A stretch of 13,668 bases of DNA from Desulfovibrio sp. (GTDB lineage Bacteria > Desulfobacterota > Desulfovibrionia > Desulfovibrionales > Desulfovibrionaceae). This document shows, piece after piece, positions 1 through 13,668 of the stretch; position 1 is the first letter of the stretch, and each line of letters begins with the position of its first letter. The notes under the pieces were generated by a model, which was given only the letters and a program-made list of their open reading frames with translations, had not been told where the DNA came from and searched no databases. Made by a program: the position numbers and the translations under genes. Location of the stretch: the NCBI GenBank assembly GCA_028708195.1, contig JAQVZK010000018.1:1-13668 (forward strand), in the 5' to 3' direction.

Positions 1-1653
1 CCCCCGCCCGCATCCTTTGTTTTGAATGGCGATCAGGCTGCTGCCCTCTGCGAGATGAAGGCCGCGCTAAAGGCTGCCCAAAGTGAAAACCGGGCCGTTT
101 CGCGCTTGCTTTATGGCGTGACGGGCAGTGGTAAAACCGCCGTGTACCTTGAGCTGGCTCGCGCTTGTCTGGCTGCGGGCAAGAGCCTGCTTTTGCTCGC
201 GCCTGAAGTGGCTCTGGCCTATAAACTGCGGCGAGACGCCGCCTGCGCCCTGCCGGAAGTTCCGCTTTTTTTTCACCACGGCTACCAGTCCCCGGCCCGG
301 CGTGAAGCCACGTACAGGCAACTGGCCGCGCGTCAGGAGCCGTGCCTTGTGGTGGGTACGCGCTCGGCCCTGTTTTTGCCGGTGCCGCATCTTGCCTGCG
401 TGGTTCTGGATGAGGAACATGACGCATCTTTCAAGCAGGACGAAAGTCTGGCCTATCAGGCCAAGGAAGTGGCCTGGTTTCGTATGGCCCAAAACGACGG
501 TTTGCTGGTGCTTGGGTCGGCCACGCCCGACCTCAAGACGTTTTATGCCGCAGAGGGCGGCCACCTGCCCATATTACGCCTGCCACGGCGCGTTGGTGGG
601 CGTGATTTGCCGCCTGTCGAGCTTGTTGACATCAGTTCGCTTTCGCCTGCCGCCACCACCGAGCAAGGTCTTCTGGCCCCGCGCAGTGAGCAGGCCCTGC
701 AGGAAATTATCAGCAGAGGTGAGCAGGCTGTGGTTCTGCTTAACCGTCGCGGCTACGCGCCCCTTATGTACTGCCTTGACTGCGGCCGCACGCTGCGCTG
801 CCCCCACTGCGAAATCGGCCTGACCTACCACAAGGGACGCGAAAAGCTTGTGTGTCACTATTGCGGGTACACAAGGCCGTTTCCCTCCCCGTGCCCGGAA
901 TGCAAGGGCATGAATTTTCTACCAATGGGCGAGGGCACGGAGCGTCTGGCCGAGCGGCTGGGTACACTTGCCGGGGGCCCCGTGCTGCGACTGGACAGGG
1001 ACAGCACGCGCCGTCCGGGCCGGATGGAGGAAATTTTGGCGGCCTTTGCCCGTCAGGAATCTCCCATTCTTGTGGGTACACAAATGCTTTCCAAGGGGCA
1101 CCATTTTCCCAATGTGACCCTGGCCGTGATCGCAGACGCAGACCTTGGCCTGAACCTGCCAGACTACCGGGCAGCCGAGCGCACCTTTCAATTGCTGGTA
1201 CAGTCCTCCGGTCGGGCGGGGCGGGGGGACAAGCCAGGGCAGGTACTTATCCAGACACGTGATGTGAGCCATTATTGCTGGCAGTATGTACGCGAAGCCG
1301 ACTATGAGGGGTTTTACGCCGCCGAGCTGGCCCGCCGTAAACTGCGGCGGTATCCGCCCTTTGTGCGTCTGGCGCTCATACGCATATCGCATGCGGTGGA
1401 GGAAAGCGGCGGGGTGGCTGCCGTCAATGACCTGGCCGCCGCCATGCGGGCACGTGCGGCGGAGCTTGGTTTGCAACTGTTGGGGCCTGCCCCTGCCCCG
1501 CTGGCTTTGCTGCGCGGGCGTCGCCGCTATACCTGCCTCGTGAAAGGGCAGGACTGGCAGGCCATACGCGCTCTGTATTTTTTTGCCTCGGCACAAAAAT
1601 ACACTAAAAACCTACGACTTTTTCTTGACCTTGATCCTGTAAATATGTTGTGA
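1..1653 (+). CDS. priA: Primosomal protein N' (PriA replication-restart helicase), 3' part
   Basis: PriA is a 3'-to-5' superfamily 2 DNA helicase that reloads the replisome at stalled forks. The frame is open to the left window edge, so 550 C-terminal residues are visible and the N-terminal DNA-binding domains (roughly 190 residues by comparison with the ~730-residue family) lie outside. The TTG at 22 is only an internal codon. Visible in order: Walker A GVTGSGKT (about residues 39-46), the DEEH box (137-140), GSATP (motif III, near 172), eight cysteines in four CxxC pairs (about 258-301) that bind two zinc ions inside the helicase core, GTQMLSKGHHFP (near 359) and the arginine-finger motif QSSGRAGRG (near 401). 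All key residues are intact. It ends with TGA and is followed by an intrinsic terminator, so it seems to be the last gene of its transcript. Confidence 0.97.
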   Translation, partial: PPPASFVLNGDQAAALCEMKAALKAAQSENRAVSRLLYGVTGSGKTAVYLELARACLAAGKSLLLLAPEVALAYKLRRDAACALPEVPLFFHHGYQSPARREATYRQLAARQEPCLVVGTRSALFLPVPHLACVVLDEEHDASFKQDESLAYQAKEVAWFRMAQNDGLLVLGSATPDLKTFYAAEGGHLPILRLPRRVGGRDLPPVELVDISSLSPAATTEQGLLAPRSEQALQEIISRGEQAVVLLNRRGYAPLMYCLDCGRTLRCPHCEIGLTYHKGREKLVCHYCGYTRPFPSPCPECKGMNFLPMGEGTERLAERLGTLAGGPVLRLDRDSTRRPGRMEEILAAFARQESPILVGTQMLSKGHHFPNVTLAVIADADLGLNLPDYRAAERTFQLLVQSSGRAGRGDKPGQVLIQTRDVSHYCWQYVREADYEGFYAAELARRKLRRYPPFVRLALIRISHAVEESGGVAAVNDLAAAMRARAAELGLQLLGPAPAPLALLRGRRRYTCLVKGQDWQAIRALYFFASAQKYTKNLRLFLDLDPVNML

Positions 1654-1690
1654 AAGGCAATTGCTTTTTTCAAGCTGTTAGTGAGGCTGC

Positions 1691-1724
1691 CCGCCTTTCC
1701 GTTTCGGGATCAAGGCGGTTTTTT
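1691..1724 (+). terminator. Intrinsic terminator after priA
   Basis: A 7-bp perfect stem, CCGCCTT (1691-1697) with AAGGCGG (1712-1718), is followed directly by six T (1719-1724). It lies 37 bp past the priA stop and separates priA from the fadL-type gene. Confidence 0.85.
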
Positions 1725-1756
1725 CAGTGCTATATGCCCCTTTTGAGGGCAGGCTT

Positions 1757-1780
1757 CAAGCCGTTTGCAGAAGCGGCTTG
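1757..1780 (+). repeat. Hairpin in the leader of the FadL-type gene
   Basis: CAAGCCG (1757-1763) pairs with CGGCTTG (1774-1780) around a 10-nt loop. A smaller hairpin, TGCCC/GGGCA, lies just before it (1735-1751). Neither is followed at once by a T-run, so they are probably leader-RNA structure and not terminators. No function can be assigned. Confidence 0.4.
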
Positions 1781-1843
1781 TCGGTAGCTTCTGGTCTTTT
1801 TTGAGGACAGGTCGCGATGGCGGCCGAGGCATGGGGAGGAAGA

Positions 1844-3124
1844 ATGAAGGTTTTTCGCGCACTGGGGCTTGCATTGGCGCTGGTTATCTGCTGTTCAGCC
1901 ACTATCCGGGCCGAAGGCTTTGCTCTCAATGAATGGAGCGCCCGCGGTGTGGCCCTCTCTGGCGGTATGATAGGGCGTGCCGACGATGTTTCCACCCTGG
2001 CCTACAATGCGGCGGGCATAACCCAGGTGCCCGGCACCCACGTTATGGGCGGTCTGGCCTTCATTGCCCCCATTGGCACCATTGTGGCCGACCTGAGCGG
2101 AGGCGGCACCACGTATACGTCCACCAAGCCCGAAGTGTGGATGGCCCCACACGGCTTTGTCAGTCACCAGTTGAATGACAAGGTCTGGCTTGGTTTTGCT
2201 TCCTTCAGTCGGTTTGGCCTCGGCAACTCCTTCGACAGCCAGTGGGTCGGTAAGTACAACATGTATGACATCGGCCTGCAAACCGTATCCTTTGTTCCCA
2301 CCCTGGCCTACAAGGTCAATGACATGCTCTCCCTGTCCGTTGGGGTTGAAGCCATGTATGCGCATGTTTACAGGGGCAACAAAGTTCCCACAATGACGGC
2401 CGCCAGCTATCCAGATCGCTTTGACAACGACCTGCAGCTCGAAGGCAGCGGCTGGGGGGTTGGCGCGCATCTTGGCATGCATATGCGCTTCAACGACCAG
2501 TGGTCTATGGGCTTGTCGTACAAAAGCCAGGTTACGCTCAATCTTTATGGTGACGTGGATTTTGGCTATGAAGGCGACAGCCTCATCGCCAAGCAAGGTA
2601 ATCTGCCAGTGGCCCGCGACCGCAGCGCCAACGCCACGTTGCAGCTGCCTGACTCCATCGCCTGGGGCCTTGCCTATAAGCCTTTGGACAATCTGAGCTT
2701 TGAAGTTGGCACTGTCTTTACCCGCTGGTCCACATACAACGCTCTGAATATCAACATGGGCGACGACTATTCCTCGGTCAACAACAAGGAATGGCGTGAC
2801 GGCTGGAACTTCAACGGCAGCGTGGAGTACAAGCCCTTGGACTGGTGGACCCTGCGCGCGGGTGTTGCCTATGAAACCCCGGTAGTGAACGAAAGCTACA
2901 GCGATTATATGATGCCCACCAACGGCCGCACCATCATGAGTCTTGGTACCGGCGTTACCTGGGAAAACTGGACCCTTGATCTGGCCTATGCCCACTTGTG
3001 GATATACCCTGTGGACTATGGCAATTCAACGTCAGCCGGCATCAAGGCCGTTGGCATCAAGGGCGGACATTCTGAAGATGTGCAGGCCAATATCTACATG
3101 TTCTCGGTGGGATACACTTTTTAG
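1844..3124 (+). CDS. FadL/OmpP1/TodX-family outer-membrane transport protein
   Basis: This is a beta-barrel channel for uptake of hydrophobic molecules (long-chain fatty acids or aromatics in characterised members) across the outer membrane. The product has 426 residues, close to the family length. A signal peptide runs to about residue 23 (MKVF, hydrophobic core, ATIRA, then EGF). The N-terminal hatch region has GFALNEWSARG...ADD...YNAAGI, matching the FadL pattern, where the usual NPAG is replaced by NAAG. The remainder has the alternating aromatic/polar pattern of barrel strands and ends in Phe (SVGYTF), the outer-membrane assembly signal. I chose ATG 1844 over the in-frame ATG 1817 because GGAGG sits 4 nt upstream and the signal peptide then begins with MKV. 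Substrate unknown. It is monocistronic and convergent with the ABC operon. Confidence 0.88.
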   Translation: MKVFRALGLALALVICCSATIRAEGFALNEWSARGVALSGGMIGRADDVSTLAYNAAGITQVPGTHVMGGLAFIAPIGTIVADLSGGGTTYTSTKPEVWMAPHGFVSHQLNDKVWLGFASFSRFGLGNSFDSQWVGKYNMYDIGLQTVSFVPTLAYKVNDMLSLSVGVEAMYAHVYRGNKVPTMTAASYPDRFDNDLQLEGSGWGVGAHLGMHMRFNDQWSMGLSYKSQVTLNLYGDVDFGYEGDSLIAKQGNLPVARDRSANATLQLPDSIAWGLAYKPLDNLSFEVGTVFTRWSTYNALNINMGDDYSSVNNKEWRDGWNFNGSVEYKPLDWWTLRAGVAYETPVVNESYSDYMMPTNGRTIMSLGTGVTWENWTLDLAYAHLWIYPVDYGNSTSAGIKAVGIKGGHSEDVQANIYMFSVGYTF

Positions 3125-3147
3125 GGCATTTCATTCTGAAGTGCTCA

Positions 3148-3231
3148 GGCGGCTGCGCGAGCAGACGCCCGCCCTGGAGGCGTAAGTGCAGCTTCAGTCC
3201 TTGCCCCTTGGGGCAAAGACTGAAGCTGCAC
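3148..3231. terminator. Two strong hairpins between convergent fadL-type gene and ABC operon
   Basis: The first hairpin is GGCG-g-CTGC, loop GCGA, GCAG-a-CGCC (3148-3169). The second has 22-nt arms (3186-3207 and 3210-3231) with one C/A mismatch at 3200/3217 and a tiny loop: GTGCAGCTTCAGTC pairs with GACTGAAGCTGCAC, and TTGCCCC with GGGGCAA. The position between two convergent genes suggests a bidirectional transcription stop or mRNA 3'-end protector. There is no clean T-run on either side, so intrinsic termination is not proven. Confidence 0.5.
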
Positions 3232-3300
3232 TGTCATTTGTTTACGCTGGCAAGGGCTGGCCGGGCGTTTTGAAAAGATGCGTGTTTTGAGAAATGAGCA

Positions 3301-3329
3301 CCGTAAAAAATGAATGCCGTAAAAAATGA
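3301..3329. repeat. Short tandem repeat with A6 tracts
   Basis: CCGTAAAAAATGA occurs at 3301-3313 and again at 3317-3329, a 16-nt period. On the minus strand these give two T6 tracts 36-65 nt past the ABC ATPase stop. A weak CTTTG/CAAAG hairpin begins at that stop, so the T tracts might help end the ABC transcript, but no good stem adjoins them. Confidence 0.5.
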
Positions 3330-3364
3330 GCTTCGTGAGCGCGCTGCTTTGCACGCCCCCAAAG

Positions 3365-4174
3365 CTACACTGGCGCGGTTGCGGCGTCGTCCTGCTGCTC
3401 CAGCAGCGTCAGAATGTGGGCCACCAGCCCTGCATATGCTGGGTCGTCTCTTCGCCGGGGGCGGGGCAGGTCCACGCTGAACCTGTCTACAATGCGTCCG
3501 GGGTTGGTGCCCATAACAATGATTTCATCAGCTAGGTAGACGGATTCATCCACGCTGTGGGTGACAAACACGATTGTCTTCCGGCTTTGCTCCCAAACCT
3601 CAAGTAGCCGTTTTTGCAGCGTAATACGCGTAAACGCGTCTATGGCTCCAAAGGGTTCGTCCATAAGCAGCACGTCGGGGTTATTGGCCAGGGCGCGCGC
3701 AATGGCCACCCTTTGTCGCATGCCGCCTGAAAGCTCGTGCGGCATGGCGAGGGCAAATTTTTCAAGGCCCACCATGCCCAGGTAGCGGCGCGCCTCCTGT
3801 TCCCGCTGGCTTTTGCACATGCCGTTGAACTGCAGGCCAATCCCCGTATTATCAAGCACATTCAGCCAGGGAAAAAGCGAATACTCCTGAAAGACCATGC
3901 CTATTTGTCGGCACGGGCCTTGCCGCAGCTCATTACGAAAGCGAATTTCTCCCTGTTCGCATGGGGTCAGGCCAGCCATCATGCGCAGCAGGGTTGATTT
4001 GCCGCAGCCAGAGGGGCCGACTATGCAGATAAAGCGCGCGTGCGCCACAGTCAGGTCTATGTGGTGCAGGGCTTCAATGGGGCCGCTCTTGGTCGCAAAG
4101 GTTTTTGATACGTCTGCGACTACGAGCTCTGAAGACAAAAATGAGGCGTCAATTACTTTGTCAGTCGTTTCCAT
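3365..4174 (-). CDS. ABC transporter ATPase, SsuB/TauB/NrtD-type
   Basis: This is the cytoplasmic ATP-hydrolysing subunit that drives an importer for sulfonate/nitrate/taurine-class solutes. It has 269 residues, normal for the family. Visible motifs are Walker A GPSGCGKST (53-61), Q-loop Gln96 in VFQEYSLFPW, signature LSGGMRQR (148-155), Walker B VLLMDEP (168-174) and the switch histidine in VTHSVDE (206). The sequence after the signature, DEPFGAIDAFTR, is typical of this subfamily. The start ATG (4172-4174) has AGGAAG about 7 nt upstream and overlaps the end of the permease gene by 22 bp, which indicates translational coupling. All catalytic residues are intact. Substrate cannot be read from the ATPase. 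Confidence 0.93.
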   Translation of the reverse strand: METTDKVIDASFLSSELVVADVSKTFATKSGPIEALHHIDLTVAHARFICIVGPSGCGKSTLLRMMAGLTPCEQGEIRFRNELRQGPCRQIGMVFQEYSLFPWLNVLDNTGIGLQFNGMCKSQREQEARRYLGMVGLEKFALAMPHELSGGMRQRVAIARALANNPDVLLMDEPFGAIDAFTRITLQKRLLEVWEQSRKTIVFVTHSVDESVYLADEIIVMGTNPGRIVDRFSVDLPRPRRRDDPAYAGLVAHILTLLEQQDDAATAPV

Positions 4175-4986
4175 ACAAACTTCCTGTCTTCATAAAGCCT
4201 GAACAGCCTGTCCAGCAGCGCTCCCACAAGCCCAATGCTTATCATGCCCGCAATGACCACGTCGGTGCGGCCCACGGTGTAGGCGTGCGTGATGAGGTAA
4301 CCCACACCCGAAAGGCTGCCAGGCAACATTTCGGCCGATACAAGGCACATCCAGGACACGCCAAGGCCAATGCGCAAACCATTGATGATGGATGGCGCGG
4401 CATACGGCAGCAGTACCTTGCGAAAAATATCTATCTCGTTGGCCCCCAGAACCCTCGCCGCATCGGTGAGCGTTTGGGGCACCATGCTCACGCCGTGGAT
4501 GGCGCTGGTGAGAATGGGGTAAAAACCGCCTATAAAGATGATAAAAATCATCGATACTTTAATGTTGTGAAAGTACGGGTAGGCGGCCCCAATAGGCACA
4601 GAAAAAACGTCCGCCAGGCTCAGCATGCCAAACCATGCCAGCACCAGCGGCACCCAGGCCAGGGGGGGAATGGAGCGAAACAGGCCAAGGAACGTATTGA
4701 GCGTGGTATTTACGTCGGGCTTGTAGCCCATGATGATTCCCAGCGGAACAGCCAAAAGCACCGCAATAAGGTAGCCCGCAAAAACCCGAGCCAGACTTAT
4801 AAGGGTATTGAGGGGCAGGGTGCCCATAGAAATAACGTCATCGCTGGGGCTGGAGAGCAGGCTCCACACCTGGGGAATGCCCGGCAGAATGATGTCGTTT
4901 TTTACCACATGGGCCATTGCATGCCATAGAAGCAGAAACAGCAGGGGAAAAATCAGTGGTAGAATAAATGCTTTAATATTTTTCAT
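4153..4986 (-). CDS. ABC transporter permease, SsuC/TauC-type
   Basis: This inner-membrane permease has 277 residues and about six hydrophobic segments, starting with a long one at residues 6-27. The coupling-helix EAA-type loop is clear at about 175-197 (DAARVLGANEIDIFRKVLLP), followed by INGLRIGLGVSW, as in SsuC/TauC/NrtB. Between WFG (118-120) and the IFIGGFYPI segment there are roughly 18-20 more residues than I recall in SsuC or TauC (MLSLADVF...HNIKVSM), so this may be a divergent branch with its own substrate. The Shine-Dalgarno signal is weak, so translation may depend on the upstream cistron. It lies 135 bp downstream of the binding-protein gene and overlaps the ATPase gene. Confidence 0.92.
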   Translation of the reverse strand: MKNIKAFILPLIFPLLFLLLWHAMAHVVKNDIILPGIPQVWSLLSSPSDDVISMGTLPLNTLISLARVFAGYLIAVLLAVPLGIIMGYKPDVNTTLNTFLGLFRSIPPLAWVPLVLAWFGMLSLADVFSVPIGAAYPYFHNIKVSMIFIIFIGGFYPILTSAIHGVSMVPQTLTDAARVLGANEIDIFRKVLLPYAAPSIINGLRIGLGVSWMCLVSAEMLPGSLSGVGYLITHAYTVGRTDVVIAGMISIGLVGALLDRLFRLYEDRKFVWKRLTK

Positions 4987-5075
4987 GAGTTATGACCGCA
5001 AGGTGAAAGTATGCGAGCTGTAGTGTGCTTGTGACAGGCCGCGCGTGGCCCGCAGCAGCTTTAACCTTTTGAGTC

Positions 5076-5105
5076 TGCCCCGGCCTGCTGGTGCAAACCG
5101 GGGCA
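5076..5105 (-). repeat. Hairpin between binding-protein and permease cistrons
   Basis: TGCCCCGG (5076-5083) pairs perfectly with CCGGGGCA (5098-5105) around a 14-nt loop, in the 135-bp gap between the two cistrons. No T-run follows on the minus strand. Such hairpins after a binding-protein cistron can protect the upstream mRNA and raise its yield relative to the membrane subunits; that role is inferred here. Confidence 0.5.
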
Positions 5106-5121
5106 AACAATGACTGAAACT

Positions 5122-6221
5122 TTATTTGCCGTTGATGAACTGCGGGTCCACAAGCAGCTCTTCTGCCTCTTTGTAGGATTTGCCCTTCAAAGCGCCTTTG
5201 AAGTATCCGGCCTTGTTCAGGTCGCTCAAATAGCCGTCTGCGCCTTCCTTCCAGCCGTCAGTAAAGGTTTGCAGGAAGCGAAGGTTGGAGTTCTTGCCGA
5301 TTTCTTCCGGCAGGCCAATCCATTTGGCACCAAGAATGCCCGCTTGCTGCGGGTTTTCATTGCACCAACGGCCCATTCCGGCCATGAGTTTCACAAAATC
5401 ACGCACAAGGGCGGGGTGGGCGGCAATGATTTCATCGCGTGCGGCGATAACGCAGCAGGGGTAGTCTGTCCACTTGCCTTCGGGGGGAAGGTTGCGCAGC
5501 ATGCTGATGTCGTGGCCAGCGCCTTTGCCCACGGCGGTCTGGGGGAAGGGCTCGGGGCCGACCACAGCGTCAACCTGTTTGCTGCTCAGGGCAGGAATAA
5601 GGTTGCCCATGCCCTTGAGGTCAACCAGCACCACTTGGGCCTTCTGGTCCAGCGGGTTGCTCGTATAGGTAATGCCCTCGGATTTGAGCGCGCTTTCAAG
5701 AATAATTATGGGCGCACTGCTGGGCGAGTGATAGCCAATGCTGACGGATTTGGGCGATTTTTTGATGAAGGCGATAAATTCCTTCCAGGTTTTGGCAGGA
5801 ACGGCGTTGGATACGACCACGCCGCCACTGGCCAGCACCAGAGGGGACACGATCTTGATGGGAATGTTTTTGTCAATGCCAGCCATAATGGCGGTTATGG
5901 AAGCAAGACCTATGTCGAGCTGCTTTGCTTCTGGGCAAAAAGGGTCGCGGTTTCAGAGCCGCTTTTGATGACCACGATATCAAGCACCGCCACGGGCTTG
6001 CCGTCCTTCATCAGTTCATACTTTTCCTTGGGAACCAGAGGCTTCATCCACATGCCGTCGATGGGCTGTTTTTCGCCCATATCCATAGCGACCATGAGGG
6101 GCGTGTGGTTGGTGGTGAAGATATAGCCGACTTTCAGCCGGGGCAGTTCGGCCGCTTGAGCGGCAACTGAAAAGGCAAGCAAGAGTGTTGTTGCCAGCAT
6201 TTTACTGAACAGGGTGCGCAT
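5122..6221 (-). pseudogene. ABC substrate-binding protein (NMT1/SsuA-type), broken by a 5-bp tandem duplication
   Basis: This would be the periplasmic solute-binding protein of the importer. The N-terminal part (6221 to a premature TAG ending at 5910) is 103 residues: a signal peptide (MRTLF...AAQAA) then LKVGYIFTTNHTPLMVAMD, the typical opening of NMT1/SsuA-like proteins, ending in a spurious SSST tail. The remainder continues in another frame from about 5930 to 5122 (KQLDIGLASITAIMAG... to FINGK). The break falls on TGCTT repeated twice (5921-5930). Removing one copy joins the frames as TLFAQKQLDIGLAS, a normal family sequence, and gives a 364-residue protein. The start has GGAGG 4 nt upstream (6226-6230). 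An internal ATG at 5886 could start a fragment lacking the first lobe. Substrate is unknown. The sequence might also carry an assembly error, but a perfect tandem duplication favours a real slippage mutation. Confidence 0.88.
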
Positions 6222-6511
6222 AAAACCTCCATAAATCAGTTTGTGTTGTGTGAACAATGTTCTGTTACATCCTTGTACATTTTTATCTTCAGGGTGTTCC
6301 AAAGCCTTTTTACGCGGTAAAGTCTGTTTGAGGGCTCGTATTTCTGTTGGCTTCAGGCGTAGTTTTTGCCTTGCCACGGTCCAGGCATCCTTGCGGCCGA
6401 GAGTACGTAACTTCGCGCCAACCGTTGCCCCACAGGCAAGCCGTGTGGCTCAAGCCTGCCCTGCTTTTTTCTGCAAAGGGCGTAAGAGGCCAGCGTGACA
6501 GAAGACCTGCC

Positions 6512-6547
6512 AAAACAAAAAAAGTTTCGTATGGTTATACGAAACTT
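6512..6547 (-). terminator. Intrinsic terminator on the minus strand
   Basis: AAGTTTCGTAT (6522-6532) and ATACGAAACTT (6537-6547) form a perfect 11-bp stem with a 4-nt loop. Read on the minus strand the stem runs straight into a tract of T (T5, G, T4). No coding gene ends just upstream; focA stops about 600 nt away. It therefore ends either an extended focA transcript or an independent small RNA, or it attenuates transcription into the ABC operon. Confidence 0.85.
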
Positions 6548-6660
6548 GCGCTGTGAAATATGGTTGTGGCTGACCCTGTCAGGCAGGGCGGGAAAGGTAG
6601 GATTATGTGCTGGCCCTGCGTGAAGGATGATGCGAGACAACCTGCCTCACAGCGCCACAA
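6548..6660 (-). ncRNA. Candidate structured RNA or leader preceding the terminator
   Basis: On the minus strand a 9-bp stem, GCGCTGTGA (6655-6647) with TCACAGCGC (6556-6548), ends exactly where the terminator stem begins. Inside it the arms 6641-6646 and 6582-6587 (GGCAGG/CCTGCC) extend the pairing. Competing pairs exist: 6583-6589 with 6613-6619 (GCAGGGC/GCCCTGC), CCCTG (6574-6578) with CAGGG (6584-6588), and 6564-6570 with 6654-6660 (TTGTGGC/GCCACAA). Mutually exclusive pairing in front of an intrinsic terminator is the layout of a riboregulator. I could not match it to a known riboswitch family, and its 5' end is undetermined. Confidence 0.35.
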
Positions 6661-6970
6661 AGTCAGGTGCCACCGCTTGCGAGTTCGCCCTGCTGCACAA
6701 GGCAGGCAAAAGACAAGCTCTGGCGGCGGGCAAAAAGATGTTTAATAGATAAGATAGTATGTAATTTCATGCTGTTAAAAGATATTTTATTGTAACTGTA
6801 AGAAGCAAAAAAGGCCTTGTTTGCAATGCTTTTTTGTCTCGGTTGACTACTCTTCCAATGATACTGTGAAAACGGGTTGGCATCAAGGGCAATGTGTTCC
6901 GGTGGTCATTGCCATTGTGTGGAAAGTAGTTCTTACAAAATACACAGACAGAGGGTCTGCAAGTTGCCAG

Positions 6971-7157
6971 AGTGCTTGCCATACTGCAAAGCACTGCAAA
7001 AGAATGTGCTCCCTTGCGGTCAGTTTTCGCAAGAGAGCACGCGGTTGCCCTGAGGCAAAATATCTGTGGTTGGCGATTTTGCGCGTCTTTCTGCGATTGC
7101 AGAAAATTGTGTGATACCCGATCTACAGGCAGTTTGCGCCAATGGGCAAACTACCTG
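6971..7157 (-). repeat. Chain of five hairpins at the focA 3' end
   Basis: Successive inverted repeats are: AGTGCTT/AAGCACT (6971-6995); GTGCTC-c-CTTGCG/CGCAAG-a-GAGCAC (7006-7040); GCAAAAT/ATTTTGC (7055-7082); TTTCTGC/GCAGAAA (7088-7105); and CAGG-c-AGTTTGC/GCAAACT-a-CCTG (7126-7157), the last overlapping the focA stop codon. Segments 7054-7075 and 7145-7166 match at 19 of 22 positions, so part of the chain looks duplicated. None has a T-run, so this is not an ordinary intrinsic terminator. Confidence 0.5.
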
Positions 7158-8098
7158 TGGTTGCCGTCAGCCCGCAGTGGGTTCGTCAAGGCGATATCCT
7201 CGGGGCTGTCATTCTCGGGCCTATCATTTGCGGGGCTGTCGTTTCCGCTGCCTGCCTGGCTGGTTTGCTGGGCATTCTCCCGCGCGAAAATCAGCCAGTG
7301 AAACAAGCCCACAAGCACGCCGCCGCCAAGTATGTTGCCCAGTGTCACCGGAATGAGGTTTTTTAAGACAAAGTTTTCCCACGTGAGCAGTGAGAGAGTG
7401 TGGGCCGGGTCCGCCAGTTTGGCCGCCACTTCAGGGGGCATCATGCCGCTGCAAAGTATGCCGATGGGGATCATGAACATATTGGCGATGCTGTGCTCAA
7501 ACCCGCACGAGATGAACAGCCCCACGGGAAAAAGGCAGGCGGCCATCTTGTCAAAAAGTGAGCGCCCGGAATAGCCCATCCAAACGCCAAGGCAGACCAT
7601 AAGGTTGCACATGACCCCAAGAAAAACGGCCTCGGTAAAGGTGTACGTCAGTTTGAACTCTGTGGTCTTGATATAGAAAAGGGCGATACTGCCGCCGTCT
7701 TTCCAGGGGTGACCACTGAGAAGAATGAGAATTACCAGGGCAATGGCGCCAATAAAGTTTCCGGTATATACCACTCCCCAGTTTGAGAGCATCTGGCCCC
7801 AGCTGATTCTGCGGCTTGCGCGCGGTACAAGTGTCATTGTGGTTGAGGTGAAGAGGTCGCCGCCCAGTACCACCACAAGCATAAGGCCAAGACTGAACAC
7901 AAGCCCGCCAACAATCTTGCCAGCCCCGGTAACATTTGCCACAGCGCAGTAAACAAAGCCAAGCCCGATAAACAGGCCTGCCATCACAGCCAGCAAAAAT
8001 GCCTGGCGGGGAGGCCGTGTGGCCTTGACGGTCATGGTTTCTACAACCTTGCCGTACATCTGGCGGGGATTCAGCGCTTCAAACGATGCTCCGGTCAT
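7151..8098 (-). CDS. focA: Formate channel/transporter of the FNT family
   Basis: FocA moves formate (and related small acids) across the inner membrane as a pentamer. The product is 315 residues with six membrane segments between about 33 and 272. Strong matches to FocA are GGDLFTSTTM (79-88), NWGVVYTGNFIGA, CNLMVCLGVWMGYSGRS and CGFEHSIANMFMIPIG with the gating histidine at 202, and NLIPVTLGNILGGGVLVG near the end. These fit FocA better than NirC or HSC. ATG 8098 is chosen over the longer frame because AAAGGAG sits 7 nt upstream and family similarity begins soon after. The C-terminal cytoplasmic tail (273-315) is long and contains a pentapeptide repeat. No pfl genes adjoin. With hypAB nearby it suggests formate exchange linked to hydrogen metabolism. 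Confidence 0.93.
   Translation of the reverse strand: MTGASFEALNPRQMYGKVVETMTVKATRPPRQAFLLAVMAGLFIGLGFVYCAVANVTGAGKIVGGLVFSLGLMLVVVLGGDLFTSTTMTLVPRASRRISWGQMLSNWGVVYTGNFIGAIALVILILLSGHPWKDGGSIALFYIKTTEFKLTYTFTEAVFLGVMCNLMVCLGVWMGYSGRSLFDKMAACLFPVGLFISCGFEHSIANMFMIPIGILCSGMMPPEVAAKLADPAHTLSLLTWENFVLKNLIPVTLGNILGGGVLVGLFHWLIFARENAQQTSQAGSGNDSPANDRPENDSPEDIALTNPLRADGNHR
7199..7243 (-). repeat. Three 15-nt tandem units in focA
   Basis: Three in-frame 15-nt units encode NDSPA, NDRPE and NDSPE (FocA residues 286-300) in the cytoplasmic tail. The copies have diverged at silent and replacement sites, so the expansion is not very recent. Confidence 0.75.
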
Positions 8099-8745
8099 GA
8101 ACGTTCTCCTTTGGAATGAAGCGGCTTGGCTAGGCGCTCGGGCTATTTTACTTTGCGATGCTTTGTACTTGTGCTTCGTGGGCAAAAAACCATTTACCAG
8201 GGGCTTCCGGCACCACGCACGCCCAGCAAAAACAGTTTTTTGCGTTGAGATGCTGAGCGTTTTTGAGCTGGAGCCATGCCCCACAAGGCTGTGCCTGCAC
8301 GGCACGACACAGTTTCAGGGTTCATCTGGACTGCAGTTGCCGCGCAAGCAGCGTGGGTGATACAAAGCCCGCCACCATAAACCAGCCGCGAACAATTTTC
8401 CATAAGAACAGTAATGTATGTAACTTTAATGATTGAAAAATATTTTTCGCTTTGAAATGCGTGTTGTGTGGCATGTTTGACTGATGCGGTATGGTATGGG
8501 GATTATCTTGTATGTATCCATTGTGTTTGAAACTGTTATGCAGGTTGTGATAAAGTGGTGATACCTTGAATGTCATTTCCTCTTGAATGGTATGGTGTTA
8601 TGTTTGTTGAAAATACTTGAATAAAATCAGAGTTATTCCCATAACACAGTGTGCATGTTGCTGTTTTTCAGTCAGGACATGCCTGTTCGGTTATTTGAGG
8701 CTGCAAAAAAAATATGGAAAACAGCTTCCTGCCCAGACGATACTA
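8099..8745. other. Intergenic region upstream of focA
   Basis: No credible gene is seen on either strand in about 650 bp. The focA leader and promoter must lie here. From about 8400 to 8740 the sequence turns AT-rich. It includes a perfect 14-bp palindrome GAAAAATATTTTTC (8435-8448) that could bind a dimeric regulator, and a distant inverted pair GTGTTAT (8595-8601)/ATAACAC (8641-8647). I could not match either to a named regulator, nor pick one promoter with confidence. Confidence 0.5.
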
Positions 8746-8782
8746 TTAAAAAGAAAGGCCTCGGCTTGTGCCGGGGCCTTTC
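8746..8782 (-). terminator. Intrinsic terminator after the AMIN-domain gene
   Basis: GAAAGGCC-T-CGGC (8753-8765) pairs with GCCG-G-GGCCTTTC (8770-8782) around a 4-nt loop: 13 bp with one G-U pair. On the minus strand it is followed by five T (8752-8748). It lies about 40 bp past the stop of the AMIN-domain gene and ends the TPR/AMIN pair. Confidence 0.92.
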
Positions 8783-8824
8783 ATGTACAAGACGTAAAAT
8801 TTTCTGTGTAATTACATGTCGTGG

Positions 8825-9718
8825 CTACTGATCTACCCGAATGTCCAAAGAAAGCTTGTCTTTGGAAAGAATGTAGCGGACGTGTCCGGGTTTGGCCGAA
8901 AGGTCGATGACAACTCTGGTCTTGTCGTCCATCTTGCCCAGACGAATGTTGGTGACCAGGGGGTTTTTGGGCACACCCGGGGCCTTGACCTGCCATTTGC
9001 CATTCAGGTCCAGCACCAGCCTTTCGGGGCCGTTGAGGGTCATGCTCTTGTAGTTGAGGGGGGCTGTGCCCACAAGGCGTATGGTGGCTCCCTTATCGCG
9101 GGCAAAGACGACAAAGCGCGTGATTTCCTGCTTTTGCGGGGCTGCCTTGGCGGCTTTTTCTGTGGCGCCGGGGCTGGGCTTTTCCGGTGCAGATTTTTCC
9201 GGCACAGATTTTTTTGGCGCTGCCTTTTCCGCAGTTTTGGTTTTTTCAGGAGCCGAGGGGGTTGCGGGTGCGGCGGGCGCAGCAGCCTTGGTTGCGCTGG
9301 CCGTTTCTGGCTTGGGGGCGCTTGCTTTGTCAACCGCGCCAGAAGGTTCCGGCTTGTGCTTTACCGGTTCGGGCAGTGGCGCATGCACAGAAGCCGCGTC
9401 AGGGCTACGCAGGGGATTGTTGTCCAGGTGGGGCACCCGGTCTGCCGGAGCAGGGGCATGCCCAGACTCCACAGGCAGCGGGGGAAGATGTGGCTGTTCG
9501 GTTGCGCCGCCAACTTTTGGTGCCTGCCCGATATCGGCAAGGGAGGGCAGGCCCGGATCTGCTGCATTGGGGCTGTCTGCAGCCGGGTCGGCAGCCTGGT
9601 TCATGGTCGTCTGCGTAATGGGCGTCTGCTCTGGCTTGCGCAGTTTTTCATTAAGCATAATGAGGGCCATGCCCAACACGCAAACTGCCAGAAGAAGGCT
9701 TAGTATCACTTTATTCAT
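8825..9718 (-). CDS. Membrane-anchored AMIN-domain protein
   Basis: The 297-residue product has one N-terminal membrane segment (residues 4-22), a long Pro/Ala/Lys/Glu-rich linker (about 28-198, with EKSAPEKPSPG-type repeats), and a C-terminal domain (about 200-294) with the AMIN pattern: FVVFARDKGATIRLVGTAP, ERLVLDLNGKW, VTNIRLGKMDDKTRVVIDL, YILSKDKLSLDI. AMIN domains target periplasmic proteins such as AmiC amidase or secretins to the cell envelope by binding peptidoglycan. No catalytic domain is fused here, so it is a likely envelope anchor or partner protein. The linker would span the periplasm. AGGAG lies 9 nt before the ATG. It follows the TPR gene by 41 bp, probably in one operon. Confidence 0.85.
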   Translation of the reverse strand: MNKVILSLLLAVCVLGMALIMLNEKLRKPEQTPITQTTMNQAADPAADSPNAADPGLPSLADIGQAPKVGGATEQPHLPPLPVESGHAPAPADRVPHLDNNPLRSPDAASVHAPLPEPVKHKPEPSGAVDKASAPKPETASATKAAAPAAPATPSAPEKTKTAEKAAPKKSVPEKSAPEKPSPGATEKAAKAAPQKQEITRFVVFARDKGATIRLVGTAPLNYKSMTLNGPERLVLDLNGKWQVKAPGVPKNPLVTNIRLGKMDDKTRVVIDLSAKPGHVRYILSKDKLSLDIRVDQ

Positions 9719-9759
9719 GCCAAAAGGCTCCTGCCAAAACTGGTTTGTCCTGAATATGT

Positions 9760-11037
9760 TCAGCGGCCACTGGAACCGGATTGCCCACGGTTTTGCAGCT
9801 TTTCTTTGCGGATATGTACCAGCATCCGAAAGTATGTCGGTTCTTCGCTGGCCATGCTCATGGCCGCACGGACGTGGGCGGCGGCCTCATCAAACTGGCC
9901 CAGCATACAGAGAATACGCGCGAGATTAAAGTGGGCGTGGTCATCGTTCGGTGCCAGTTCCACAACCTTGCGGGTGAACAGAAGAGCCAGCGCCGGTTGC
10001 GAGTTCTGGCGCAACCTGACGCCGAAATCCCTGAACATATGCTTGTGTACTGTACAGATATCTTCTGTGGCTCCAGCCAGTTGCTCAAGGGCGCTCAGGG
10101 CGGCCTGGCGCTCCCGGGGGCGTCTGAGGCGCAGCAAGGTCTGCCGGAATGTTTCGCGCAGCCGCGATTCTGTTATTTTGGCCTTGCGTATGGCCTCCAT
10201 GGTCATCTGGCTGCCTGGCGCAGGGCTTGAGGCCTGCGGCGGCACTCGCGCGCCCTTGTCTGCCTCAACTGCAGAAATCTTTTTTTCCGCCGTTGGCACG
10301 CCAGCCCTTTGGGCCAGGGTGCCAGATTGAGCCGGTGTGCCTTTTTTTTGCAGGGCCGTCCGCTGCCCTTCCCCGGCAACAGTCAGCTTGTGTGGCGGGG
10401 GAGAAGCTTTTTGTGCTGTCTGTACCCGCTGCATCCCGGGTTTTTTTGCTGTAGAAGTGCTGTCGTCGTCGGGCTGGCTGGAAGAAGCGGCGCCTGTTCC
10501 CGCTGTGGCGTCGCCTTGCCCGGCATTTGCAAAAGCCGTGGCGGATTTTCCCGCTTCACGGGCAGCAGGGGGCGCTCCACCGGGTTGAGCTTGCGGGCTG
10601 CCCTTTGGTTCACTTTGCGCAAGATTTGGGGGGGCAGCCTGTGCGGCAGCGGGGGTTGCGGCATCCGGCTGGGCAGCAGTTGCCTGATTTTGGGCATGCG
10701 ATGGAGAAGAGCCCGGCGCTTTTGCTGGCGCTGCACCCGCGGATGCTGCCTGTTGAAGGGAGTCTTTGTCAACGTCAGATTTTTCTCTGTTTTCCAGGCG
10801 AGAAAGGTCCGGCGTAGTGACGGGCATTGCCAGTATCTCTGGTTCTGCCCTGAAATTCTTGGCAAATGCTCTGGCGCTGATCCTTTCTGGCTCGGCTAGC
10901 GGTTGGAACGCCTTGTTTAGTTCCTGTACCGCAAAGGCTCCGTCAGGAAGTTCCCATACGAAGTAATGGTTTTTGCGGCGGTTTTCCGTCCAGTCGGTGG
11001 AAAAAGAGTACACGCCTGAAAATTTTGAGCGACGCAT
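9760..11037 (-). CDS. TPR-repeat protein with a disordered Ala/Pro/Gln-rich middle
   Basis: No named family is recognised over the full length. Three parts are visible (numbering from the upstream ATG at 11052): a compact N-terminal region (1-90; KFSGVYSFSTDWTENRRKNHYFVWELPDG), a low-complexity Ala/Pro/Gln/Ser middle (about 100-285), and a helical C-terminal part (285-420) with at least two TPR-like helix pairs, the clearer being ALALLFTRKVVELAPNDDHAHFNLARILCMLGQFDEAAAHVRAAM. No signal peptide is seen, so it is probably cytoplasmic. ATG 11037 (MRRSKFSG) is chosen, but ATG 11052, five codons earlier, is equally possible; neither has a good Shine-Dalgarno. It is transcribed with the AMIN-domain gene, which suggests that the two proteins work together in an unknown envelope or scaffold function. 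Confidence 0.75.
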   Translation of the reverse strand: MRRSKFSGVYSFSTDWTENRRKNHYFVWELPDGAFAVQELNKAFQPLAEPERISARAFAKNFRAEPEILAMPVTTPDLSRLENREKSDVDKDSLQQAASAGAAPAKAPGSSPSHAQNQATAAQPDAATPAAAQAAPPNLAQSEPKGSPQAQPGGAPPAAREAGKSATAFANAGQGDATAGTGAASSSQPDDDSTSTAKKPGMQRVQTAQKASPPPHKLTVAGEGQRTALQKKGTPAQSGTLAQRAGVPTAEKKISAVEADKGARVPPQASSPAPGSQMTMEAIRKAKITESRLRETFRQTLLRLRRPRERQAALSALEQLAGATEDICTVHKHMFRDFGVRLRQNSQPALALLFTRKVVELAPNDDHAHFNLARILCMLGQFDEAAAHVRAAMSMASEEPTYFRMLVHIRKEKLQNRGQSGSSGR

Positions 11038-11086
11038 TGTTGAAATGTACATTATTTACGCCGAATGGCAAGAATGGCATCCTGGC

Positions 11087-11115
11087 TTTACGTTACCGGG
11101 AGTTTGCGTTATTAT
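11087..11115 (+). promoter_or_regulatory. Putative sigma-70 promoter of hypA
   Basis: TTTACG (11087-11092) and TATTAT (11110-11115) are separated by exactly 17 bp, with the -10 matching 5 of 6 consensus bases. Only 6 nt lie between this -10 and the hypA ATG, so transcription would begin near the start codon itself and give a leaderless or nearly leaderless mRNA. The site lies in the 84-bp gap divergent to the TPR gene. Confidence 0.4.
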
Positions 11116-11121
11116 GGGGTC

Positions 11122-11475
11122 ATGCATGAAATGTCCATTGCACAAAGTTTGTTGAAGATGTCGGAAGAAGAAATCTCCCGGCAGGGTTGCTCGCGTCTTG
11201 AGGTTGTAAACGTCAAGTACGGCGCGCTTGCTGGCATTGTGCCAGAATCACTGCAGTTCTGCTTTGAAACAATGATTCAGGGCACACCCCACGAAGGCGC
11301 GCGTCTTGAACTGGAAGAGTTGCCTTTGCAACTGCACTGCCCGTTCTGCGGCGCGGATTTTGGCGGCGAAGGGCAGAGCGCTCTGATTCAGCCTTGCCCC
11401 GGTTGCGGCGAGCAGTTCGGCCATGTGGTCAAGCAGGGCCGTGAGCTGTATCTGAACCGCCTTGAGGCCAGCTAG
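11122..11475 (+). CDS. hypA: Hydrogenase maturation nickel metallochaperone HypA
   Basis: HypA delivers nickel to the NiFe-hydrogenase large subunit together with HypB. The 117-residue product starts with MHEMSIAQSLL, where His2 and Glu3 belong to the conserved N-terminal Ni site. It has the zinc-binding pairs CPFC (73-76) and CPGC (92-95) and the family core VVNVKYGALAGIVPESLQFCFE. The longer frame opening at 11065 is rejected because the family always begins MHE. The Shine-Dalgarno is poor (GGGGT close to the ATG), which agrees with the near-leaderless promoter. hypB follows after 213 bp, an unusually wide gap for this pair, with structured sequence between them. No hydrogenase structural genes are in the window. 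Confidence 0.96.
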   Translation: MHEMSIAQSLLKMSEEEISRQGCSRLEVVNVKYGALAGIVPESLQFCFETMIQGTPHEGARLELEELPLQLHCPFCGADFGGEGQSALIQPCPGCGEQFGHVVKQGRELYLNRLEAS

Positions 11476-11506
11476 CCCTGGCCCCGGCCAGCTTCTGTCC
11501 GCCCAA

Positions 11507-11578
11507 CATCATTTGAACTGCGGCCCGAGCAGTGAGTTGCCAAAAATGATGAGCGGCCGCGCACGGCGGCACTTTTTT
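11507..11578 (+). terminator. Structured hypA-hypB spacer with a possible terminator
   Basis: CATCATTT (11507-11514) pairs with AAATGATG (11544-11551), enclosing a small ACTGC/GCAGT hairpin. A GC-rich 5-bp hairpin GCCGC/GCGGC (11556-11570) comes next, then AC and six T (11573-11578), which fits a modest intrinsic terminator or attenuator. A further T-run at 11610-11616 is preceded by a weaker, bulged stem. Such structure could lower hypB expression relative to hypA or make hypB separately transcribed. Confidence 0.45.
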
Positions 11579-11688
11579 CCGATGGCAGGCGAGACCTTGC
11601 TGTCGGGCGTTTTTTTGTTGCTATTGTCATCCATATCAGCCTACTACCTCAGATAAAGACTCTGCCTGGAGTCTGCAAGGAGATCGGC

Positions 11689-12357
11689 ATGCAAATTCCC
11701 GTGGTTCGCAATGTGCTGGAAGCCAATGAAAAAATGGCGGCCCATGTGCGCAAGCGTTTGTCTGACAATGCGATTCTGACGCTGAATCTCATCAGCTCGC
11801 CCGGTGCGGGCAAGACAACCCTGCTCGAACGCACGCTGACCGATCTGGCGGGAGAGTTTCGCATGGCCGTGATTGAAGGCGACCTGCAGACAGATAACGA
11901 CGCCCGCCGCGTGGCCGCCACCGGGGCTCAGGCCGTGCAGATCAACACCGACGGCGGCTGCCACCTTGACAGCAACATGATCCTGACCGCGCTGGACAGC
12001 CTTGACCTCACCGGCGTGGATATTCTTTTTATCGAAAACGTGGGCAACCTCGTGTGCCCTGTGGAATTTGACTGCGGTGAAGACGCCAAGGTTGCCCTGC
12101 TGAGCGTGGCTGAAGGTGATGACAAGCCAGAAAAATATCCGCTGCTTTTCAACCTGGCGCATGCCCTTGTGCTCAACAAGGTTGACCTGCTGCCCTATGT
12201 GGACTTTGACATGACGCGCGCCCGCAATTTTGCCACCAAGCTGAACAAAGACCTTGATATTTTTGAGGTCTCTTGCCGTCAGGGGCAGGGGCTTGAAGGG
12301 TGGTACGGCTGGCTGCGCGACAAGCGGGCGGCTAAGAAGGAAGGGCGTCCTGGCTAG
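11689..12357 (+). CDS. hypB: Hydrogenase maturation GTPase HypB
   Basis: HypB is a SIMIBI-class GTPase that drives nickel delivery to NiFe hydrogenase with HypA. The product has 222 residues. Walker A is SSPGAGKTT (36-44). The metal and dimer site includes Cys91-His92 (GCHLD) and Cys123 in ENVGNLVCPVEFD. The guanine-specificity motif is NKVD (163-166). It lacks the N-terminal CxxCGC motif and the histidine-rich stretch seen in some HypB proteins, so it is the short form without a nickel-storage region. Minor departures are NTDGG where NTG is usual before CHLD, and an extra Cys in EFDCGED. AAGGAG lies 6 nt before the ATG. The stop codon TAG lies inside the CTAG flanking the MITE-like element. 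Confidence 0.97.
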   Translation: MQIPVVRNVLEANEKMAAHVRKRLSDNAILTLNLISSPGAGKTTLLERTLTDLAGEFRMAVIEGDLQTDNDARRVAATGAQAVQINTDGGCHLDSNMILTALDSLDLTGVDILFIENVGNLVCPVEFDCGEDAKVALLSVAEGDDKPEKYPLLFNLAHALVLNKVDLLPYVDFDMTRARNFATKLNKDLDIFEVSCRQGQGLEGWYGWLRDKRAAKKEGRPG

Positions 12358-12507
12358 GGACTGTTTTGAATAAATAATTTTGCGCCAAGGGCAGAGAAAA
12401 AGGCCATTTTTACGAAAGGCGTGTACCGTAAGAGTACACGCCTTTCGTAAAAATGGCCTTTCGACGCAGCCAACTGGACAAGAGAAATATTTAGAGACAG
12501 CCCCTAG
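12354..12507. mobile_element. MITE-like insertion flanked by CTAG repeats
   Basis: A 146-bp non-coding element (12358-12503) lies between CTAG at 12354-12357 and CTAG at 12504-12507. Its ends are imperfect inverted repeats: GGACTGTTTTGAATAAAT on the left, and GGGCTGTCTCTAAATATT read inward from the right (6 of the first 7 bases agree, then more loosely). A 4-bp CTAG target duplication is known for the IS5 group, and the end sequence has an IS5-family look. There is no transposase, so it would move only in trans. The left CTAG holds the hypB stop codon and the right CTAG holds the stop of the opposite gene. Confidence 0.6.
12399..12461. repeat. Perfect 28-bp inverted repeat at the core of the element
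   Basis: Arms 12399-12426 and 12434-12461 are perfectly complementary over 28 bp around a 7-nt spacer (CGTAAGA). Transcribed from either side this makes a very stable hairpin. There is no T-run outside the stem, though a T5 lies within one arm and an A5 in the other. It may act as a bidirectional block to transcription or exonucleases for the two convergent genes. Confidence 0.9.
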
Positions 12508-13487
12508 CGGCCGCCTTCACTGGCCTGGTAGGCCGCCACATCCACCACAAGATTTTTTGAGCTGTGACGCAGTGTCAGTGTAAAAAGCTGCACATCGCTC
12601 TGCGGTCTGTCGGCGTCGGCCAGATTGGGCAACATGGCCGCTGGTGCCAGCATGACCGTGGCTTCGCCCTGACCTGAAGACAAAAAGTAGTCCAGCACCT
12701 GCTGCAATATTTCCTTGTGTCTGGCAGTATCGCTGTTGGGCATTTCAACAAAATTCATATCCAGACCGGGCAGTTCGGCCTGCCAGGGGGCATAGCCCTG
12801 CGCGTACAGGGTTGCGAGCAGCTTGTTGAGCGTTGTGGCATCCAGCTTGCGGCGCAGTTCCATATGCTCCAGACGGTCAGGGCCAGACGCCCGCGAGATG
12901 TCGGATTTGCCGTTTTCTGCATGGCCGGGCAACAGTCGCGCCGCCCAAACCATGCCTGCAAAGCCAAGGCTCGTAAGCACGGCGTCATTGTCGTCAAGGG
13001 GTGGGCTTTGATCCAGCAGGGCGCAAACATCCTTCATGCTCATGCCGGGGCGAAACCGGTCCAGGGCACAGACTGGCCCGCTGTTTTCATCGGGCAAAAG
13101 ACTGCGCATGTGGGCGCTGAACTGGCGGAGGTCACCCTTGTCGGTAACGAGGGTCAGAGTGTCGGGCTTCGGGCCGAAGGTCAGGCTTTCGGCCTGTGCC
13201 AAGGGCACGCGGCTGAAGGTCCACAGGGTCAGGCCCGTATCCAGGCGCAGGTCAGCCGTGCCACCGGGGTTTTCAATTTCTTCGCTGCCGCCGGGTTGCA
13301 TATCAAGGCGCATGAACTGCGTGACCTTGCCTCGCTGCAGATGGATATTGAGCAGATCTTCGCCAGTATTGTTGACAATAGACAGATTTTGCGGGGCGGC
13401 GGCCATGCCGGCGGCACTCCACAAAAGCACTATGAGACAGACGAGGACCAAAGGCAGGCCGCGCCGTGAATTGTAATTTGTGGTCAT
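12504..13487 (-). CDS. Exported protein of unknown function
   Basis: I do not recognise the family. The 327-residue product begins with a signal peptide (MTTNYNSRRG, hydrophobic stretch, AGMAAA; cleavage near residue 31) and has no further membrane segment, so it is probably periplasmic. The start of the mature part (LSIVNNTGEDLLNIHLQRG) looks like a small beta-rich domain with an NNTG motif. The rest has no catalytic signature that I can name. There are just two cysteines in the mature part, in PVCALDRF and DVCALLDQ. ATG 13487 is preferred to the TTG two codons upstream because GGAG sits 6 nt before it. The stop codon lies in the right-hand CTAG of the MITE-like element. The upstream 5' region has GCGGGG/CCCCGC (13533-13560) and GTGTC/GACAC (13499-13515) inverted repeats. 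Confidence 0.8.
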   Translation of the reverse strand: MTTNYNSRRGLPLVLVCLIVLLWSAAGMAAAPQNLSIVNNTGEDLLNIHLQRGKVTQFMRLDMQPGGSEEIENPGGTADLRLDTGLTLWTFSRVPLAQAESLTFGPKPDTLTLVTDKGDLRQFSAHMRSLLPDENSGPVCALDRFRPGMSMKDVCALLDQSPPLDDNDAVLTSLGFAGMVWAARLLPGHAENGKSDISRASGPDRLEHMELRRKLDATTLNKLLATLYAQGYAPWQAELPGLDMNFVEMPNSDTARHKEILQQVLDYFLSSGQGEATVMLAPAAMLPNLADADRPQSDVQLFTLTLRHSSKNLVVDVAAYQASEGGR

Positions 13488-13615
13488 GAGCAACTCCCGT
13501 GTCTCTGTAGGACACAGAATCTATAACAGAGCGCGGGGCTTGCCCGCAAGTCAACCCCGCAAGGTGTTGTCGCCACTCTTTACGCTTGAAGCTGTGCCTG
13601 CTATGTTAAGCATGT

Positions 13616-13644
13616 TTGAACTCCCACAGAAAGTTATATATCAT
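13616..13644 (+). promoter_or_regulatory. Putative sigma-70 promoter for a gene beyond the window
   Basis: TTGAAC (13616-13621) and TATCAT (13639-13644) are 17 bp apart. A purine-rich AAAGGAAAAG tract close to the right edge resembles a Shine-Dalgarno site, suggesting that a plus-strand gene starts just outside the window. Confidence 0.4.
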
Positions 13645-13668
13645 TTATCAGGATTAAAGGAAAAGACA

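Follow-up and report, generated by a model that had tools for sequence, protein, structure and literature searches.

A dispersed Desulfovibrio repeat with IS5-like ends and a conserved hairpin core adjoins gene stop codons in one preferred orientation

How does a repeat-like segment come to lie exactly between two convergent genes and touch the stop codon of each? This question is raised by a 13,668-nucleotide stretch of DNA from Desulfovibrio sp. (assembly GCA_028708195.1, contig JAQVZK010000018.1, positions 1 to 13,668), which is referred to here as the window. In it, hypB (11689..12357, + strand; 222 aa), encoding a CobW/HypB/UreG domain (PF02492, E 4.7e-23), converges with an ORF of 329 aa (12504..13493, - strand) that the first-pass annotation labelled a predicted exported-protein gene, for which Pfam gave no match at E <= 0.001 and which has matches in 24 of 60 relatives. 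The gap between the stops is filled by a MITE-like element (12354..12507, no strand assigned), delimited from its letters and from copies of its family and made up of 146 bp between two CTAG words. As had been claimed, the left CTAG (12354..12357, + strand) supplies the TAG stop of hypB (12355-12357) and the right CTAG (12504..12507, - strand) does the same for the opposite gene, whose TAG is read from 12506 to 12504; the coordinates confirm both. The 146 bp have inverted ends, the left with the family letters GGGGCTGTTTCTAAATAAATGATTTTGCG (12358..12381, + strand) and the right beginning with GGGCTGTCTCTAAATA (12480..12503, - strand), and include no ORF of at least 80 aa in the ORF list. At the centre lies a perfect 28-bp palindrome (12399..12461, no strand assigned) with arms at 12399-12426 and 12434-12461 and a 7-nt loop at 12427-12433, and the whole segment pairs end to end (DNA fold -46.4 kcal/mol, z -9.85, equalled by 0 of 200 shuffles), in agreement with the strong hairpin described in the first-pass annotation.

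That annotation also took the segment for a MITE-like element with inverted ends, and nucleotide searches of its own genome and of relatives bore this out: the segment is not single-copy and belongs to a dispersed family whose inverted ends are conserved. Within its own draft genome (78% complete), the window segment as query returned 34 rows at E <= 10; of these, 20 had E <= 0.001 and came from 13 contigs. With a relative's copy as query, 18 contigs showed full or fragmentary copies at E <= 0.05. DNA-level relatives were present in 16 of 79 genomes of the same genus, and a scan scoring the best ~10 candidates per genome yielded 102 copies from fetched loci, a lower bound, which collapse to 77 distinct sites. 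Five copies in genome G017 shared 96–99% identity with a sixth, pointing to recent movement of a family that may still be mobile. Family ends resemble GGGGCTGTYTCTAAATAAAT and are flanked by CTAG or close words: across 48 full canonical copies the left edge was CTAG in 22, CCAG in nine and CTGG in three, the right edge was CTAG in 28, and both edges were CTAG in 14. The CCAG (9/48) and CTGG (3/48) forms at the left edge are presumably what very-short-patch (VSP) repair would give. The CTAG on both sides of these 14 copies would fit the 4-bp duplication of CTAG that had been proposed and a 2-bp duplication of TA alike. Copies also varied in length: L254, L017, L018, L010 and L257 are short and lack the central hairpin, as if deleted between the arms, and L222, L219, L226, L225 and L227 carry ~48–160 bp extra in the hairpin loop, L226 exceeding its orthologue L215 by 48 bp.

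The suggestion of an IS5-type parent was supported in part. In G021, an end reading TAGGTGCTGTTTCTAAATAACA, which differs from the family at three of 22 letters, is followed by the N-terminus of a truncated IS5-family transposase (PF13340, DUF4096, E 1e-21), while an intact IS with the exact family ends was not found in the 12 genomes searched. A possible C-terminal transposase remnant was read by eye in G028. We take IS427 to be the group name for these DUF4096 transposases, the test actually applied being PF13340. Among 30 fetched loci from related genomes, full IS elements of the same kind had ends definable by a TAG-containing inverted repeat in ten copies, a choice that favours CTAG; these ten were 825–865 bp long, and seven of them were flanked by CTAG on either side. 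Elements with other ends have the same core, and by eye the ends in L231, L248 and L251 look like those of other ISs of the genus, at L155/L158 and L150. A clean empty site was found at locus L207, where G070 has the element with TAG and CTAG around it and G017 has one TAG, with the junction aligning across the two genomes; it is the cleanest of six candidate sites shown, the other five being less clean.

The position of the copies relative to genes was then compared between their two ends, docking being scored for each copy on the stop of the nearest inward-pointing gene as predicted by a codon-usage gene caller. A stop lay within 30 nt of the core landmark on the right side in 67 of 96 copies and on the left side in 5 of 90, and the exact-edge count prior to collapsing was 38/72 on the right versus 4/63 on the left. 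Over the 77 distinct sites, a stop was docked by the right end in 54 of 74 cases but by the left end in just 4 of 68 (Fisher p 2e-17). The docked stop was TAG at 42 of the 54 sites, 29 of these being CTAG, as compared with 94 TAG (32 CTAG) among 274 stops from 400 kb of G017. A stop at both ends was seen only in the window copy among the sites examined; its right end docks in the usual way on the exported-protein gene, and its left end on the hypB stop is the exceptional one. This one-sided docking, which is a habit of the family, and the hairpin as a conserved module had both gone unnoticed in the first-pass annotation. The bias was weaker, though still one-sided, in an unselected 400 kb of G017, where 7 of 23 cores docked on the right and 0 of 23 on the left (24 rows minus one reverse-strand reading of a place already listed). 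Of 37 cores from other genomes, 28 docked on the right and none on the left; these were drawn from 75 rows after leaving out reverse-strand readings, further units of the same locus and the duplicates L335, L336 and L339, and as 11 of them repeat sites of the first set, 19 of 26 new cores were docked (a hand count with orthologues not collapsed).

Several individual loci may be recorded alongside these counts. One gene has two insertion points, on its stop in G000 (L088) and ~23 nt past it in G017 (L254) and G070 (L182). Five tandem cores with 152-bp spacing directly follow the end of a polymerase-like gene in G025 (L330, 1501-2200). The 400 kb of G017 (L160-L179) also contain a further core-bearing repeat, with ends GGAAACGCTGATTTATTC, that is less tied to stops.

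Such a pattern might arise passively, if IS5-type insertion were directed to CTAG, a word rare in genes, and copies elsewhere were lost, the hairpin having no function for the host. The word is indeed depleted and concentrated at stops, with 128 occurrences against 228 expected (Markov estimate) in the 400 kb of G017, 27 or 32 of them, by two counts, stop codons; CTAG is likewise rare in the window (6 observed, shuffle mean 25.6), where three of the six (11472, 12354, 12504) terminate ORFs of the list, and CTAG flanks are common in the family. Full ISs are not free of a stop-docking habit either, as 2 of 20 IS edges fell exactly on an in-frame stop and three more within 10 nt (+1, +1 and -7). 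However, CTAG is palindromic, and filtering alone would therefore yield no orientation, in conflict with the excess of right ends (54/74 versus 4/68). Covariation in the core, and its conservation in elements whose ends differ, also speak against purely passive filtering, which we regard as improbable. The IS edges were also considered as a source of the bias and set aside, given just two exact and three nearby cases among the 20 edges of 10 IS copies. The window has an ORF in a hypA-like position (11065-11475) that also ends in CTAG (11472-11475).

Judged by their domains, the docked ORFs are real genes. Twenty proteins were chosen by hand from 21 docked rows, L201 being dropped as the orthologue of L237, and 17 of the 20 passed the curated Pfam cut-off, including AIR synthase, YebC, SmpB, ThiG, EF-G, threonine dehydratase, SPOUT methyltransferase and DNA polymerase A; gene names beyond the Pfam labels are those we presume to apply. 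For 15 docked genes, G017 or G021 offered an orthologue that lacks the element and is at least 70% identical (L228+, L122 and L197 were excluded for lower identity, other length or as paralogues), and all 15 pairs ended at the same residue by hand count, as compared with 41 of 52 ordinary orthologue pairs. The element therefore adjoins the gene at its native terminus.

The stop codons of these element-free orthologues were TAG in six, TAA in three and TGA in six (hand count), and so high a share of TGA is not predicted by simple insertion into an existing CTAG stop. Ordinary TAG genes had a TGA orthologue in 1 of 18 cases (G017 to G021) and 3 of 24 cases (G021 to G017). This excess, though in small numbers, hints at a TAG supplied by the element itself. 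The element would then enter at the boundary between the last codon and the stop and exchange TGA, TAA or TAG for a terminal TAG, in keeping with the letters past the left end of L185 (CCCTTGATTGC, where the orthologue has TGA). Ordinary target duplication, however, would also account for a TAG beside both ends and for the one TAG in the empty L207 site of G017, and stop codons drift; an element-borne TAG is accordingly a possibility that we lean against.

The core between the inverted ends was examined in 32 diverse, hand-chosen copies aligned on the sense strand of the docked gene. Compensatory changes were observed at 15 of 21 predicted pairs, the covariation score was 0.392 in comparison to 0.07–0.14 when partners were slid and 0.174 in shuffles, and 97 cells had changed on both sides, in comparison to 12–24 (slid) and 32.1 (shuffled), with 0 of 500 shuffles reaching 97, all with a structure derived from the same alignment. 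The core is thus a covarying, asymmetric hairpin common to elements with different ends. On the sense strand, G-U pairs outnumbered A-C mismatches by 32 to 17 in the plain alignment and by 60 to 34 in a structure-fitted alignment that leans that way, an excess that may be read as a hint of the sense strand. Rfam gave no match near a gathering score for window positions 11400-13000 or for six further loci, and identity with miRNA-type Rfam families was rejected, since their scores were far below gathering and reflect only a long hairpin.

A covariance model of the core (R1) found it in 33 of the 79 genus genomes, five of which had at least 55 matches, and, across the whole order with this genus counted in, in 76 of 297 genomes from 18 of 55 genera, at densities from 2 per 1.2 Mb of G021 to 23 per 0.4 Mb of G017. 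Alternatively, the core could be an ancient 3'-end RNA passed on by vertical descent, with drifting outer arms and little mobility. Orthologous genes do carry the core in different species (for example L060/L245 and L201/L237), and the DNA polymerase A gene of G063 and a G025 gene with a similar C-terminus have it within different arms. Yet the near-identical dispersed copies of G017, the empty site at L207 and the disparity between 8 matches in G021 and at least 55 in G017 are difficult to reconcile with vertical descent, which we hold to be quite unlikely as the principal explanation.

What the docked core may do was approached through terminator prediction. The window hairpin gives a terminator-like site, a 20-pair stem with a T-rich tail (12397..12453), on the - strand, which is the sense strand of the opposite gene, whereas this hairpin yielded no such site on the + strand. 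Over 88 copies, a strict terminator pattern occurred on the sense strand in 17 and on the other strand in three, but by a looser measure the sense-strand fold was the stronger in 33, the weaker in 54 and equal in one. Because the strict and loose tests disagree, terminator function stays a matter of inference, and for the family as a whole the evidence for it is weak. The broader prediction that the element is a transcribed 3'-end module, either terminator or stabiliser, can be made with moderate confidence; position, orientation, covariation and the terminator-like site of the window hairpin on the - strand all fit it.

The window copy departs from the family in its symmetry. Its hairpin arms match at 28 of 28 positions, the only perfect case of the 102 copies (next best 26 and 25), and its loop, CGTAAGA, is inverted relative to the family's usual loop, being the reverse complement of TCTTACG or similar. 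The core model recognises this copy on either strand, with 71.7 bits on the - strand (12387..12476) and 50.4 bits on the + strand (12385..12474), where wrong-strand readings of other copies, as far as listed, reached ~11–36 bits. Template switching at a quasi-palindrome produces symmetric arms and a flipped loop, and the symmetric hairpin of the window would fit such an event. The loop of L229 (G084; 3239-3327) also looks inverted, with imperfect arms, the sole other such case among the 32 aligned cores.

The history of the hypB junction was read from relatives, 16 of 26 loci (own locus included) containing hypB and 15 relatives having hypB with an adjoining gene. The first-pass annotation had envisaged entry of the element into overlapping stops that shared a single CTAG, with no spacer replaced. 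Arithmetic removal of the element does leave overlapping stops, and such an overlap (CTAA) does occur in the distant G032, the only one of the 15 relatives with a readable junction to have it. In the three closest relatives, G017, Desulfovibrio sp. MES5 and G021, however, ~290–360 bp separate hypB from the opposite gene, and that gene ends in TGA in all three, so the double-stop target was not borne out and entry into a pre-existing overlap appears rather unlikely. A single-CTAG empty site at hypB, as the annotation had anticipated, was found neither in the junctions of the 15 relatives nor by BLAST with the flanks, although the comparison of filled and empty loci succeeded elsewhere, at the single-TAG site described above. 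Because the three relatives have long spacers without the core, we consider that the window element probably replaced an older hypB spacer. No core remnant was found in the hypB loci of nine relatives by a model search with filters off (best 11.2 bits, E 0.44). A TAGGG word follows the hypB stop in G017 and MES5 and likewise stands at the left end of the element; as a conjecture, these words would suit a deletion at the junction. The G017 spacer between the two genes has an inverted repeat of its own.

Overall, the explanation that we favour, and consider reasonably probable, is that of an IS5-mobilised MITE with a conserved hairpin, serving as a 3'-end RNA or terminator module, that is kept at stop codons. 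Non-autonomous copies would be moved by IS5-family DUF4096 (IS427-like) transposases preferring CTAG-like targets, their inverted ends enclosing the asymmetric, covarying hairpin, and would be retained, possibly by selection, mainly where the right end meets the stop codon of a gene. A docked element would be transcribed as the first part of the 3' untranslated tail with its core in sense, where the core would most likely act as an intrinsic terminator and/or RNA stabiliser. At the present locus, which in relatives is occupied by a longer spacer, the element would form the common tail of hypB and its convergent neighbour, and its hairpin would have been made symmetric with a flipped loop in the manner of a template switch. 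Against this explanation, just 7 of 23 unselected G017 cores dock.

Known systems share parts of this description. Elements of the IS5 family and IS427 group and the MITEs derived from them are alike in inverted ends and CTAG-like flanks, and IS427-group elements of Paracoccus are 832–865 bp long with 2-bp and, once, 4-bp duplications (PMC3281130), near the 825–865 bp of the ISs found here. In contrast to IS-derived MITEs, the present element encloses a conserved hairpin and no shrunken transposase, docks on stops in one orientation and combines several end types with one core. BOX repeats of Streptococcus pneumoniae are tightly folded with paired ends, and 36 genes take their stop codon from such a repeat with no strong sign of being truncated by it (PMC3049150); the likeness is one of description only, as BOX is modular (boxA/B/C) and the relevant part of that report states no single-orientation junction with stops. 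SPRITE repeats of the same species are terminator-like, enriched near gene 3' ends and suggested to be co-opted (PMC3049150), and differ in that inverted ends and a target site are absent from the part of that account describing them. In Neisseria and Pasteurellaceae, uptake-sequence hairpins serve as terminators, another case in which a repeat scattered through the genome also provides the hairpin at gene ends (PMC1852404); these are paired words of ~9–11 nt, whereas the present element is of 150 bp with transposon-like ends. The same source names D. desulfuricans among organisms in which intrinsic termination seems to be in wide use (PMC1852404). A QMITE2 insertion in Coxiella has been described to extend enhC at its 3' end (PMC5896051). 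A search of the open-access literature found no earlier report of the present family.

A more general proposal, which we advance tentatively and with less confidence than the explanation favoured above, is that Desulfovibrio-type bacteria possess a transposon-borne 3'-end module: a conserved RNA hairpin, moved by IS5-type transposases, that would dock on stops in one orientation, maybe with its own TAG, and take over the 3' end of the gene at tens to perhaps more than 100 places per genome in roughly one in four of the order's sampled genomes, becoming symmetric at double-sided sites such that it reads as a module on both strands. If this is true, mobile DNA would be a routine source of gene 3' ends across a whole bacterial group, including those of basic genes of the DNA polymerase A, EF-G and SmpB types. 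The covarying core, unmatched in Rfam for the part of the window and the six loci searched, would be a candidate RNA family, and sister sites with and without the element would offer a natural experiment in the harmless entry of a transposon at a gene end and in the spread of new transcript ends.
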